NCBI RefSeq assembly: GCF_900880625.1
Contig: NZ_CAAHFB010000001.1
Coordinates: 1,860,001 to 1,924,000, forward strand
DNA from: Halorhabdus rudnickae
GTDB taxonomy: Archaea; Halobacteriota; Halobacteria; Halobacteriales; Haloarculaceae
Reading direction: 5' to 3'
Length of the DNA stretch: 64,000 nucleotides
A program made the position numbers and the translations under genes. The stretch's first letter is position 1. The number at the start of each line of letters is the position of its first letter. This document shows positions 52,369 through 57,335 of this stretch, one piece after another. The notes below the pieces were generated by a model. That model was not told where the DNA came from, did not search any database, and worked only from the letters and a program-made list of their open reading frames with translations.

Positions 52369-52734
52369 ATGTCGGCAGCCACCGACGACACTGACCTCGA
52401 AATGGTGATGGCGATCGTCCGACCGGAGAAACTCAGCGACGTCAAGGCCGCCCTCGCAGAGGCCGGCGCCCCCTCGCTGACGGTCACGCAGGTCTCCGGG
52501 CGCGGCTCCCAGCCGGCCAAGACGGGCCAGTGGCGTGGCGAAGAGTACGTCGTTGACCTCCACCAGAAGATCAAAGTCGAGTGTGTCGTCGAAGCCGATC
52601 GCACCGAGGCCGTCGCCGAGGCGATCCGCGAGGGGGCCAACACGGGGGAGAAAGGCGACGGCAAGATCTTCGTTTTGCCAGTCAGTGACGCTATGCAGGT
52701 CCGTACCGGGGATCGCGGGACCGACGCGCTCTGA
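52369..52734 (+). CDS. glnK: Nitrogen regulatory protein PII (GlnK)
   Basis: A 121-residue PII protein. [17 protein letters not shown] is the conserved start, the T-loop contains [15 protein letters not shown], and the ligand-binding [14 protein letters not shown] is complete. Residue 51 of the T-loop (Tyr in bacterial proteins, the uridylylation site) is Trp here, so the bacterial type of modification is unlikely. A GGAGG site and TATA box lie before the ATG. It stands about 250 bases before the amt1 leader and may be a separate transcript. Confidence 0.93.
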
Positions 52735-52897
52735 AGGCCGGCTGTTTTTCCGCCGATCGAACCGCGCGCGACGTCCAGCCCGTCGCTCGTCGCTCGAGAC
52801 CGTCCGATACTGTTTGTGATCGTCCAATTACCCGCTCGTAGCACTGTGACCGCTGGACGAACGATGACCTTATACTGTTAATATAGTGCACAACATT

Positions 52898-52909
52898 GGA
52901 CGTTTGTCC
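52898..52909. promoter_or_regulatory. GGAC-N4-GTCC palindrome upstream of amt1
   Basis: GGACGTTTGTCC has the same half-sites and spacing as the site upstream of glnK1. It lies about 40 bases before the TATA-like ATTATATAG (52948-52956) that should serve the leader ORF. An AT-rich segment with ATATAGTGCAC precedes it, similar to the repeat near 435. Confidence 0.4.
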
Positions 52910-52981
52910 TATAACAGACTGGAAATAAAGGTGTGCTGACCCAAGGGATTATATAGCATCCTTTCTTGGGACCGAAGCGAG

Positions 52982-53068
52982 ATGGCAACTACGAACGTAG
53001 TCGAATACGGTAGAAAAGTACACGAAATATCAGAAATGAATGCAAACACTGGAATGGGGGTGTCGTAG
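52982..53068 (+). CDS. 28-residue leader ORF of amt1
   Basis: ATG at 52982 lies about 28 bases after the TATA box (52948-52956), so it would be the first codon of a leaderless transcript. The frame has 28 codons, MATTNVVEYGRKVHEISEMN and eight more, and ends with TAG at 53066-53068, directly against the amt1 ATG at 53069. Its length and 10 of 28 positions match the leader ORF of amt2 (55507-55593) without gaps, with VV and RKV shared. GGGGGTG at its end is a Shine-Dalgarno-like site for amt1. Confidence 0.6.
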   Translation: MATTNVVEYGRKVHEISEMNANTGMGVS

Positions 53069-54460
53069 ATGGCTGTCGGTGGAGAAGTCGCCAGCGGCAT
53101 CAACATGGTGTGGGCGCTGACGGTAGCATTCCTTATCTTCTTCATGCAGCCCGGGTTCGCGCTGCTGGAGGCCGGCCAGGTCCGTGCGAAAAACGTCGGC
53201 AACGTCCTGATGAAGAACATGACCGACTGGACGCTCGGCGTGCTCGCGTACTTCTTGATCGGGTACGGGGTCGCTGGGATCATCGGGCCAGCGACCAGTG
53301 GCGGTGGCATCGACATCGGCGCTGCCTTCGCCTACTGGGGCAGTCCCGGCGGCTGGGTCACCTGGCTCGTCGGCGCGGTCTTCGCGATGACGGCGGCGAC
53401 GATTGTTTCCGGAGCGGTCGCCGAACGGATGAACTTCGGCGCGTACGTCTTCGTCGCCTTCGTGATGACCGCCGTGATCTACCCCGTCAGCGAGGGGATC
53501 ACGTGGTGGGGCGGGCTGCTGGCATCGGGCGGATTCATCGGTGAGGCCATCGGCGTCGGCTACCTCGACTTCGCCGGTGCGACCGTCGTTCACATGCTGG
53601 GCGGTATCGCCGGGCTCGTCGGTGCCTACATGGTCGGCCCGCGGAAGGGGCGCTACGACGAAAACGGCAACAGCCAGCCGATCCCCGGCCACTCGATGCT
53701 GCTTGCCGTCCTCGGGACGTTGATCCTTGCGTTCGGCTGGTTCGGGTTCAACGTCGGTACGTCGTCGATCTTCACGGGCGGCGGCGAGTTCCTCGGCGAG
53801 CAGCTCGGGCGCGTCGCGCTGAACACGACGCTTGGCATGGGTGCCGGCGCGCTGATGGCGATGGTCGTCTCCAACGCCTGGCAGGGCAAGCCGGACCCGC
53901 TGTGGACCGCGAACGGCTTGCTGGCCGGGCTCGTGGCCGTGACGGGTGCCGTTCCCCACGTCACGTGGTGGGGCGGCATGATCCTCGGCGGGCTGGCCGG
54001 CGCGCTGGTGTTGCCGGCCTTCCGGTTCACCGTGGACACGCTCGGCATCGATGACGTCTGTGGCGTCTTCGCGGTTCACGGCGTCGCCGGCGCGGTCGGG
54101 ACGGCACTAATCCCGTTGTTCTACACCGAGGCCGGCGGTATGGTTCTCTTCGGCGATCCGTGGGCCTTTGCCGGTGTGGACGTCCTCGTGATGCAGATCG
54201 TCGGCGTCATTGTCATCGCCCTCTGGGCGATCGTCGGCACGGCAATCACCTTCGGGATCGCGGACGTCCTCTTTGGCCTTCGCGTCACTGATGAGGAGGA
54301 GGATATCGGCCTCGACGAGGGCGAACACGGCGTCACGGTCTACCCCGAGTTCGTCGGTGGCGAACCCGGCTCGCCCGGGACTGGTCCGGCCGTCAGCCCC
54401 GACGGCGGCGAGATCCGGACGGACGGCGGTCGCTCGCCCAACGGGGGTGAGAACGAATGA
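53069..54460 (+). CDS. amt: Ammonium transporter (Amt1)
   Basis: A 463-residue Amt/MEP/Rh channel with eleven predicted membrane helices. The signature [22 protein letters not shown] has the first pore His, and [20 protein letters not shown] the second. The C-terminal cytosolic tail ([17 protein letters not shown]) is the site PII proteins bind. Its stop overlaps the glnK2 ATG by four bases. Translation is likely coupled to the upstream leader ORF. Confidence 0.95.
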
Positions 54461-54810
54461 GTGACGACGACATCAAGCTGGTCATGGCGATGATCCGGCC
54501 CGACCGGCTGGGTGCGGTCAAACAGGCCCTCGCGGAAGTCGGCGCGCCCTCACTGACGGTGACGCAGGTGTCGGGCCGTGGCTCGCAGGCCGCCAAGAAG
54601 GGCCAATGGCGCGGCGAGGAGTACGTCGTCGACCTGCTCCAGAAGGTCAAAATCGAGTGTGTGGTCTCGGAGATCCCCGCCGAGGACGTCGTCGAAGCGA
54701 TCCGGGAAGCGGCCCACACCGGCGAGAAGGGCGACGGCAAGATCTTCGTCCTGCCGGTCGAGGACGCCATCCAGGTCCGCACCGGCGAGAGCGGCCCGGA
54801 AGCAGTCTGA
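54457..54810 (+). CDS. glnK: Nitrogen regulatory protein PII (GlnK2)
   Basis: A 117-residue PII protein. [17 protein letters not shown], the T-loop [18 protein letters not shown] and [18 protein letters not shown] are intact. Residue 51 is again Trp. Its start overlaps the end of amt1 by four bases (ATGA). It should block the Amt1 pore when nitrogen is plentiful, the known role of GlnK in archaea. Confidence 0.93.
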
Positions 54811-54825
54811 GAACACGGAGACGGC

Positions 54826-55284
54826 ATGGACCTAGACGACACCGATCGCGCGCTCGTCGATGCCCTCCTCGAAGACGGCCGGGCAACGGTCCGCGATCTC
54901 GCCGCCCAAGCGGGTATCGCCGTCGAGACGGCCGAACGGCGGATCGACGCCCTCGAGGACGCCGACATCATCGAGGGCTACACTGCCCGGGTCGATTACG
55001 ACGCGCTGGGGTACGACGTGACCGCCGTCGTCCGGCTCCGCGTCAGTGGATCGACCGAAGCCGTGGCCGAAACGTTCGAGGAGTACGCCTGGGCCCGCTC
55101 GGTCTACGAGGTGACCGGCGAAGACGACTACGTCCTGATCGGGCGATTCCGCGACACTGACGACATGCACGGGAAAGTCGCCGAACTGCTGACCGAACCT
55201 GCGGTGGGTTCGGTCACCGTCGACGTAGTGCTGGATACCGTCCGGGCGTGTGAGACGGTACGGATCGAGACGACAGAGAACTGA
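54826..55284 (+). CDS. Lrp/AsnC family regulator in the nitrogen module
   Basis: A 152-residue regulator with an N-terminal HTH (DDTDRALVDALLEDGRATVR, TAERRIDALEDADIIEG) and a C-terminal ligand domain (VTAVVRLRVSGSTEAVAETF). It lies 15 bases after glnK2, so it belongs to the same transcript as amt1. It may control one or both amt promoters; no site can be linked to it from sequence alone. Confidence 0.88.
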   Translation: MDLDDTDRALVDALLEDGRATVRDLAAQAGIAVETAERRIDALEDADIIEGYTARVDYDALGYDVTAVVRLRVSGSTEAVAETFEEYAWARSVYEVTGEDDYVLIGRFRDTDDMHGKVAELLTEPAVGSVTVDVVLDTVRACETVRIETTEN

Positions 55285-55378
55285 TCCGCTCGCGCGCGGC
55301 CCCCCGCAATCGGCCCTGTTTCTGCCCCGAAACGGTGTACGAACGTCCAGTTCTATGGCCCAAACTCTGCTCTAGACC

Positions 55379-55393
55379 GGACAATGAACGTCC
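55379..55393. promoter_or_regulatory. GGAC/GTCC inverted repeat upstream of amt2
   Basis: GGACAATGAACGTCC has the same GGAC and GTCC half-sites as those upstream of glnK1 and amt1 but with a 7-base spacer. A second repeat, GAACGTCCAGTTC, is at 55341-55353. Both lie upstream of the TATA-like CTATATG (55471-55479) used by the leader ORF. Confidence 0.35.
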
Positions 55394-55506
55394 TTATATC
55401 CATAATACTCTTATCCATTTTGGACATATAGCAACCCACGCATCCTAATTTGTGACGTATTAAACCAAACCTATATGTATTCCAATGCCCCACCCGTCGA
55501 CCCGTG

Positions 55507-55593
55507 ATGAATACGATAGACGTGGTAACAGGAGCAAGAAAGGTGGACAAATACGCACTCGCGTCGGCCACCACCGAACGGGGGTGTCGCTGA
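55507..55593 (+). CDS. 28-residue leader ORF of amt2
   Basis: ATG at 55507 (with a GTG just before it) opens 28 codons: MNTIDVVTGARKVDKYALAS and eight more, ending with TGA at 55591-55593. The amt2 GTG follows after one base. CTATATG at 55471-55479 is at the leaderless distance, so this would be translated first. Length is the same as the amt1 leader and 10 of 28 residues match it in the same places. GGGGGTGTCG before the stop is shared in both leaders and gives a Shine-Dalgarno-like site for the amt. Confidence 0.6.
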   Translation: MNTIDVVTGARKVDKYALASATTERGCR

Positions 55594-55594
55594 C

Positions 55595-56935
55595 GTGGCC
55601 GTCGATCCGTCGGTACTCACAGACGGGGTCAACAGCCTCTGGATTCTCGTCGTGACCTTCCTGATTTTCTTCATGCACGCGGGCTTCGCCATGCTCGAGG
55701 CCGGCCAGGTTCGGGCCAAAAACGTCGCCAACCAGTTGACGAAGAATCTGTTGACCTGGAGCGTCGGAGTGTCGTTGTTCTTCGTCGTCGGGTACGGCAT
55801 CGCCCAGGCCGTCGCTGGACTGGGCTTTACCCCCGCGTTCGACCTCGCGCCGACCGGCTGGATCGACTGGCTGTTCGGCGCGGTCTTCGCGATGACGGCG
55901 GCGACGATCGTCTCCGGGGCCGTCGCCGGCCGGGCGAAGCTCCGGGCGTACGTCACCTACACGATTGTCCTCGCGGCGGTCATCTACCCCGTCGTGATCG
56001 GGTTTACCTGGACGGCCGAGACAGGACTGGTCGCTTCGATCACGGGCATGGTGCTCGGTACCGAGATCGCCTTCCAGGACTTCGCGGGCGGCATGATCGT
56101 CCACGGCATGGGTGGGATCGCCGGGCTGACAGCGGCCTGGATTCTGGGCCCGCGTCTGGGCCGCTTCGACGGTGACTCGGTTACCGTCATTCCGGGCCAC
56201 TCGATCACGTTCGCCGTCCTGGGGACGCTCATGCTCGCCTTTGGCTGGTACGGGTTCAACGTCGGCACGCAGTTCGAGATCCTCGTCACCCAGGGTGACG
56301 GGATCGCCTTCATGGGCGACGCCCTCGGGCGGGTAGCGATGGCGACGACCCTCTCGATGGCCGCCGGAGCGATGGGGGCCGGCCTCGTCGCCTGGCTGAA
56401 GACCGGGAAGGTCGACACGCTGTACGTCGCCAACGGCCTGCTTGCCGGGCTCGTCGGGATCACGGCGATCCCCAACACGACGGCCTGGTGGGGTGCGTTC
56501 GTCGTCGGCGGGCTGGCCGGCGCACAGTTGCCGGTCGTGTTCACGTTCGTCGAGAAGCGCCTCCACATCGACGACGTCTGTGCGGTCTTTCCCGTCCACG
56601 GCAGTGCCGGGATGCTCGGTGCCCTGGCGTTCCCCTTCGTGGCCGCGCCGGGCGTGCTCGCAGACCGCGGAGTTACCGTCGTCGAGGCCTTCGTCGCCCA
56701 AGTTATCGGCGTCTCGCTGATCGCGGCCTGGACGGTCCTCGCGACGGCGCTCGTCTGGGGCGGACTCCGTGCGCTCGGGGAGGCTCGCGTCTCTGCACCC
56801 CACGAGCGCGACGGCCTGGACGCTTCCGAACACGGCGTCGAGACCTACCCCGAGTTCGGCGCTGGCGAGGAGCCGACGGTGATGACCGACGGCGCACCCG
56901 AACTCCGGACAGACGGAGGTGGTCGCGATGAGTGA
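55595..56935 (+). CDS. amt: Ammonium transporter (Amt2)
   Basis: A 446-residue Amt paralogue. [20 protein letters not shown] holds the first pore His and [20 protein letters not shown] the second. [15 protein letters not shown] in the tail matches the PII-binding region. GTG at 55595 is the start closest to the conserved N-terminus. Its end overlaps the start of glnK3. Confidence 0.95.
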
Positions 56936-57335
56936 CGACCAGCCCCCGGTCGCAGCCGACGACACACCGGCCGACTCGGCGGCCGATACCCGTGACATCG
57001 AACTCGTGATGGCGGTCGTCCGCCCGGAGAAACTCGGTGCCGTCAAGACGGCGCTGGCGGAGGTAGACGCACCCTCCCTGACAGTGACTCAGGTCTCCGG
57101 GCGCGGATCCCAGGCCGCCAAGACGGGGCAGTGGCGCGGCGAGGAGTACGTCGTCGACCTCCACCAGAAGGTCAAAATCGAGTGTATCGTCGCCGACGTA
57201 CCAAGCGAGGATGTCGTCGAAGCGATTCGGGAGGCTGCCCACACCGGCGAGAAGGGCGACGGCAAGATCTTCGTCCTGCCGGTCGCCGACGCTGTCCAGG
57301 TTCGGACCGGCGAGTCTGGTCCGGACGCCGTCTGA
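56928..57335 (+). CDS. glnK: Nitrogen regulatory protein PII (GlnK3)
   Basis: A 135-residue PII protein with an N-terminal extension of about 20 residues ([20 protein letters not shown]) not seen in the two paralogues. The core [17 protein letters not shown], the T-loop [18 protein letters not shown] and [14 protein letters not shown] are intact; Trp again takes the place of Tyr51. It overlaps the end of amt2, so each Amt has its own PII partner. Confidence 0.93.

Follow-up and report, generated by a model that had tools for sequence, protein, structure and literature searches.

Both ammonium transporter genes of the window (the whole 64,000-nucleotide stretch of Halorhabdus rudnickae DNA analysed here, in whose coordinates all positions are given) are preceded by a 28-codon micro-ORF, and both micro-ORFs are real rather than products of chance. 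We consider it probable that they are leaderless conduit ORFs, which would carry ribosomes over a transcribed array of operators and pass them to amt by termination-reinitiation, with an Lrp/AsnC regulator as the likely binder. Sequence comparison shows conservation of frame, start and stop, an absence of selection on the encoded peptide, and palindromes arranged in helical phase; translation, its coupling to amt, and the identity, binding and effector of the regulator are proposed from these features together with the literature. The genes, micro-ORFs and promoter elements of the amt region are as follows.

52948-52954, + strand: amt1 proximal TATA box, ATTATAT
52979-52984, + strand: predicted amt1 transcription start and uORF1 start, GAGATG; the ATG lies at TATA+34, and the transcription start is placed by its distance from the TATA box
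52982-53068, + strand: uORF1, 87 nt, 28 codons, MATTNVVEYGRKVHEISEMNANTGMGVS; its TAG abuts the amt1 ATG at 53069; homologous frame in relatives
53057-53063, + strand: SD-like word GGGGGTG, putatively serving amt1 reinitiation
53069-54460, + strand: amt1, ammonium transporter (PF00909)
54457-54810, + strand: glnK1 (PF00543), ATGA overlap with amt1
54826-55284, + strand: Lrp/AsnC regulator gene (PF13404 + PF01037), candidate operator binder, between the two amt operons
55470-55479, + strand: amt2 TATA box region, CCTATATGTA, with TATA at about 55470-55473
55504-55509, + strand: predicted amt2 transcription start and uORF2 start, GTGATG
55507-55593, + strand: uORF2, 87 nt, 28 codons, MNTIDVVTGARKVDKYALASATTERGCR; TGA, one base, then the amt2 GTG at 55595
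55580-55586, + strand: SD-like word GGGGGTG before amt2
55595-56935, + strand: amt2, ammonium transporter (PF00909)
56919-57335, + strand: glnK2 (PF00543)

A third P-II gene, glnK3 (52369-52734), lies directly 5' of the amt1 promoter and has no amt partner of its own. A distal CCTTATA element is present at 52868-52876 (amt1) and 55391-55398 (amt2), and in many loci at about -80 from the proximal TATA box; it often has its own TGGACGAA word 5' of it and may be a second promoter.

The first-pass annotation had described 87-base micro-ORFs at leaderless distance from a TATA box and ending at the amt start, and this arrangement was confirmed at both loci. Its count of 10 identical residues out of 28 between the two peptides, M included, was reproduced; the nine matches left without the M occurred at a frequency of 5e-5 in composition shuffles. 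The ribosome-site-like word that it placed over the micro-ORF end is also present, as GGGGGTG in both, with GGGGGTGTCG at or near the 3' end of each uORF, and an SD-like word precedes amt in 87 of 101 loci. Among 65 long ORFs of the window, a leaderless uORF of canonical form that stops at the gene start was recovered only for amt1 and for one probable false ORF; amt2 was probably masked by a longer antisense ORF in the greedy ORF set.

To place these loci in a wider context, we compared amt loci of haloarchaea, 190 in all and 179 of them unique, drawn from named contigs and other genomes of the family and class, the closest of them with 92% Amt identity. A promoter matrix scan identified a common amt promoter architecture in 144 of the 179 unique loci and found it absent from the remaining 35 copies. 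Four amt copies (L016, L017, L163 and L212) carry no such promoter, operator array or coupled uORF, and are perhaps differently regulated paralogues. Upstream of amt, most loci contain a frame resembling M-I-x-N-T-N-...-V-D-x-R that ends at the amt start and begins with GTG at TATA+31 or ATG at TATA+34, which is the predicted 5' end of the transcript. The start codon thus coincides with the predicted transcription start behind a strongly conserved BRE/TATA, as in a leaderless ORF; GTG or ATG was found at TATA+30 to +37 in 127 of the 144 promoter-bearing loci, and most uORFs begin with GTG.

The frame itself is kept with few exceptions. Of 127 start-bearing frames, 121 end within 8 nt of amt, and three of the other six end, as judged by eye, at an alternative (mis-assigned) amt start, so that about 124 of 127 keep the frame (clear failures: L133, L168 and L192); a search for such a frame in other haloarchaeal amt loci, which the annotation had proposed, therefore succeeded. 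Among the 17 loci without a start codon, the frame was kept in only 10. Loss of the frame is commoner where the start codon is missing, and the SD-like word is absent from several of these loci too, which would be expected were amt then translated by another mode of initiation. In L152, L154, L155 and L177, which are among the 17, CGTG has become CGTA; the uORF start at the transcript end has likewise changed from GTG to GTA in L185 and L188, and in several of the six the frame and/or the SD-like word is lost.

The stop lies within 8 nt of the nearest amt ATG in 83 of 98 canonical-start loci, compared with 27.7 in dinucleotide shuffles holding the start and the last 12 bases fixed; these are counts rather than probabilities, because the sequences are related, not independent, and shuffling removes kinship only partly. 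The 83 junctions are mostly TGATG (-2) or ATGA (+1), and most of the other loci end at an alternative amt start, so the uORF stop overlaps or touches the amt start, as in coupled gene pairs. The distance from uORF start to amt ranges between 65 and 131 nt and changes by multiples of 3. In 93 of 101 loci amt occupies frame 2 with respect to the uORF; the exceptions include several Halorhabdus loci, which have TAG-ATG or TGAC-GTG instead. Such variety of length in steps of three would be hard to obtain without translation.

These counts bear on the reading in which the leader is only an operator-bearing 5'-UTR and the open frame a by-product of composition and of the ATGA/TGATG overlap. The leader is indeed under strong constraint at the DNA level, and when the amt start context is held fixed, 28% of shuffles still have an open frame reaching amt. 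Even so, we regard this reading as quite unlikely, given the observed excess of coupled stops, the length differences in multiples of three, the single relative frame of amt and the more frequent loss of the frame where the start codon is missing. A chance open frame is likewise disfavoured by the shuffles and frame counts.

Selection on the micro-ORFs, as suggested by the annotation, is upheld for frame, start and stop (83/98 against 27.7; 93/101) and fails for the peptide. When synonymous and nonsynonymous change was compared, as it had advised, pN/pS was 0.85 in the leader versus 0.24 in the first 300 nt of amt (30 pairs, each sequence used once; relatedness is only partly removed from the pair counts in this and the rate tests), indicating no purifying selection on the leader peptide. 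Pooling of close pairs gave 0.279, 0.285 and 0.257 substitutions per site for the first, second and third codon positions. Outside the operator columns described below, the corresponding rates were 0.287, 0.330 and 0.276, and inside them 0.179, 0.107 and 0.123, a rate 2-3 times lower in operator columns whichever codon position is taken. In addition, the third base of the conserved Thr codon is G or A in 90% of loci and C in 3%, a pattern that selection on the peptide would not be expected to produce at Thr codons of GC-rich genomes. Because codon positions change equally, pN/pS is 0.85 and the Thr third base is rarely C, the conserved letters are DNA.

The peptides range from 20 to 38 codons, and their C-termini are unrelated across relatives. 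Neither purifying selection on residues nor a stable length, the marks of a small protein, was found in the leader peptides; the marks of an attenuator peptide, purifying selection on conserved residues or on runs of codons, were likewise missing. A small protein, such as an Amt subunit or a regulator, would account for the equal place and length of the uORFs at both window loci and for the nine identities beyond Met. It is highly improbable in the face of the pN/pS value, the equal rates at all codon positions, the variable lengths and unrelated C-termini, and the coincidence of the matching residues with operator DNA; the small Amt subunit envisaged by the annotation is ruled out by the equal substitution at the three codon positions together with pN/pS. 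A sequence-specific attenuator or leader peptide, its other suggestion, is unlikely and finds no support, with the codon-position and pN/pS tests against it.

What had looked like peptide selection on shared residues is instead operator DNA, ACGAACGT / GGACGAACGT, read in different frames. The shared TNV and V-D-x-R correspond to one palindromic DNA word, TGGAC-N4-GTCCA: T-N-V (ACG AAC GTN) and V-D-E-R (GTG GAC GAA CGT) both contain ACGAACGT, which is part of it. Conserved residues in short uORFs can, as a general caution, be operator DNA and not peptide. Matches to GGAC-N4-GTCC at 7-8 of 8 positions were found in 21 of 113 leaders and 42 of 113 upstream regions, versus about 3.6 expected in each, at fixed places -113, -51 and +72 from TATA (motif start). 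A 14-mer scan placed the centres of strong sites at -129, -107, -87, -45, -15 and +78 from TATA, with helical phasing of R=0.80-0.83 at 10.4-10.5 bp when the +78 sites were left out. A matrix trained on the +78 site alone peaked next at +47 and -15, at offsets that are multiples of 31 bp; of the periods from 24 to 44, only 31 had zero as its best phase, a modest result by itself (z 2.6). The sites 5' of TATA are spaced by longer helical multiples. The array therefore has the inverted repeats, single helix face and two- or three-turn spacing of an Lrp-type array, with some distances of at least four turns. An RNA hairpin cannot explain the palindromes, because the copies upstream of TATA lie outside the transcript. 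Position TATA+46 (52994 for amt1) is A in 96% of loci, a conservation above what the palindrome requires. The operator sites of the window, to which no strand is assigned, are listed below.

52854-52867: operator-like palindrome TGGACGAACGATGA, amt1, about -87 from TATA, from the TGGAC-N4-GTCCA scan
52896-52911: near-perfect operator palindrome TTGGACGTTTGTCCTA, amt1, about -45 from TATA
52988-53001: operator copy ACTACGAACGTAGT in uORF1, TATA+47, encoding T-N-V-V
53019-53032: degenerate operator copy TACACGAAATATCA in uORF1, TATA+78, 5/10 matches; the consensus is strong in relatives
55421-55434: operator half-site TGGACATATAGCAA, amt2, about -45, from direct reading and called a good half-site
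55544-55557: operator copy TGGACAAATACGCA in uORF2, TATA+78, encoding V-D-K, from direct reading

The leader copies of the window (+47 and +78) are partly degenerate, which, like the excess conservation of TATA+46 and the 35 amt copies lacking the promoter, weighs against the conduit reading. The amt1 palindrome at -45 is one of only 6 such strict sites in the 3.36 Mb genome, another of which overlaps the start of a different ORF. No wider regulon was found at the stringency of palindrome plus TATA, at which 39 genomes gave one amt match and one other. The M. jannaschii Ptr2 site, with the consensus GGACGATTTTCGTCC, has half-sites GGACG/CGTCC identical to those of the amt palindrome; it measures 15 bp with a 5-base centre, whereas the amt palindrome is 12 bp, GGAC-N4-GTCC.

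The position of these operators also bears on what survives of the attenuator-like leader proposed by the annotation, namely a regulatory uORF that acts independently of its peptide. Here, nitrogen state would modulate translation of the leader or reinitiation on amt, possible routes being the efficiency of initiation, the passage of ribosomes through the bound operator, or the efficiency of termination-reinitiation. The strictly kept, amt-coupled frame suits such a role, as does the operator inside the translated region, through which transcription, regulator binding and ribosome loading would share the same DNA. We nevertheless hold it to be unlikely, as no conserved codon run or peptide was seen, no Rfam match was obtained, and the two window leaders folded ordinarily (z -1.25 and -0.83). 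The same two results, no Rfam match and no unusual fold in either window leader, disfavour a structured leader RNA or riboswitch. That the amt leader is a class-wide archaeal regulatory uORF, in which operators and leaderless conduit are fused and regulator occupancy and ribosome entry are controlled together by nitrogen, is a doubtful proposition.

In the conduit reading that we prefer, transcription would begin at the GTG or ATG of the micro-ORF, and a ribosome would initiate at the 5' end, read 20-35 codons of unselected sequence and terminate on or beside the amt start, where the SD-like word would allow reinitiation on amt. The operator array, with TGGAC-N4-GTCCA at about -129, -107, -87, -45, -15, +47 and +78 from TATA on one helix face, would run 50-60 bp past the transcription start. 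The conduit would exist because this extension makes an mRNA leader unavoidable; kept open, the leader would couple amt translation to leaderless initiation. Most likely the array would be bound by the Lrp encoded beside glnA or by the amt-linked paralogue of the window, which would place amt-glnK under the control of nitrogen status. If so, a mainly leaderless lineage can still put operators 3' of the transcription start, by retaining an ORF, whatever its sequence, as the leader.

Published work on haloarchaeal translation bears on several of these steps. In H. volcanii, SD motifs are not used at 5'-UTRs (PMC3986360), and coupling was strict in 9 of 9 gene pairs with ATGA/TGATG stop-start overlaps (PMC6728339). 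GUG has been stated to be non-functional in leaderless initiation (PMC3986360), which is a difficulty for the conduit model, as most uORFs start with GTG; the mapping of H. salinarum lrpA1 as a leaderless GTG mRNA (PMC2894021) speaks against such a failure. The many GTG starts at predicted transcript ends offer a direct test of the claim that GUG is unused.

Compared with known systems, the amt loci share the ATGA/TGATG overlap, the SD-like word and a haloarchaeal host with the coupled gene pairs of H. volcanii (Huber et al. 2019, PMC6728339), but their upstream ORF has only 20-38 codons, encodes an unselected peptide and is tied to one promoter class-wide. The 16 uORFs found by dRNA-Seq in H. 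volcanii (PMC4983044) are likewise short ORFs in the leader of a larger gene; their leaders are 150-250 nt long, in contrast to about 65-130 nt for amt, whose uORFs open at the predicted 5' end of the mRNA and extend to the amt start. Archaeal Lrp/AsnC operators (PMC2995911; Sa-Lrp, PMC3584215; H. salinarum Lrp, PMC2894021) resemble the amt array in their clustered inverted repeats on one helix face and in the link to glutamine and glnA, whereas the amt array, with binding predicted, extends from about -129 to +78 of TATA, into a putatively translated leader. An AT-rich motif, AAAGACTAART, has been proposed for H. volcanii nitrogen genes, the amt1 and amt2 promoters being among those searched; it differs from the amt palindrome, which does not appear in the parts of that report available to us (PMC6801745). 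No published report of the amt uORF or palindrome was found in a search that left most subscription papers and supplements outside its scope.

The probable binder of the predicted operator array is a regulator of the Lrp/AsnC family, which is favoured, on circumstantial grounds, because of the palindrome type and phasing, the gene neighbourhood, the site between glnA and lrp, the literature and the absence of NrpR. An Lrp/AsnC gene adjoins amt in other Haloarculaceae too, and homologues of the window gene were detected in 20 of 20 genomes searched; one such homologue is a neighbour of glnA, both in this genome and in the loci retrieved for it. Archaeal Lrp proteins bind clustered inverted repeats of 13-17 bp that lie on the same helix face two or three turns apart (PMC2995911). 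In H. salinarum, glnA is activated by Lrp (PMC2894021), the H. mediterranei nasABC promoter pulled down an Lrp/AsnC protein (PMC8143581), and a response to glutamine is known for a crenarchaeal Lrp (PMC3584215).

That conduit and array are as proposed and the binder belongs to another family is a real, though lesser, possibility. The Lrp assignment draws on motif type and gene neighbourhood, and in many families no Lrp gene was found beside amt: of 70 long loci, only 31, most of them from a single family, have one within 1.5 kb. On the other side, the palindrome type, the multiple phased sites and the related glnA-lrp site fit Lrp. The nitrogen repressor NrpR was rejected as the regulator, its domain PF01995 being absent from 20 of 20 haloarchaeal genomes and present in the methanogen controls. 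The array thus provides a concrete candidate operator for haloarchaeal nitrogen control, where NrpR is missing and the amt-glnK regulator has been described as unknown.

Most divergent glnA-lrp intergenic regions carry, at a constant place, a word close to TGGAYRTTCGTAAA. In these regions a conserved word resembling TGGAYRTTCGTAAAATTCTAAT, akin to the amt operator, lies about 46-52 bp before lrp in L262 (reverse strand), L271, L275, L278, L279 and L280.
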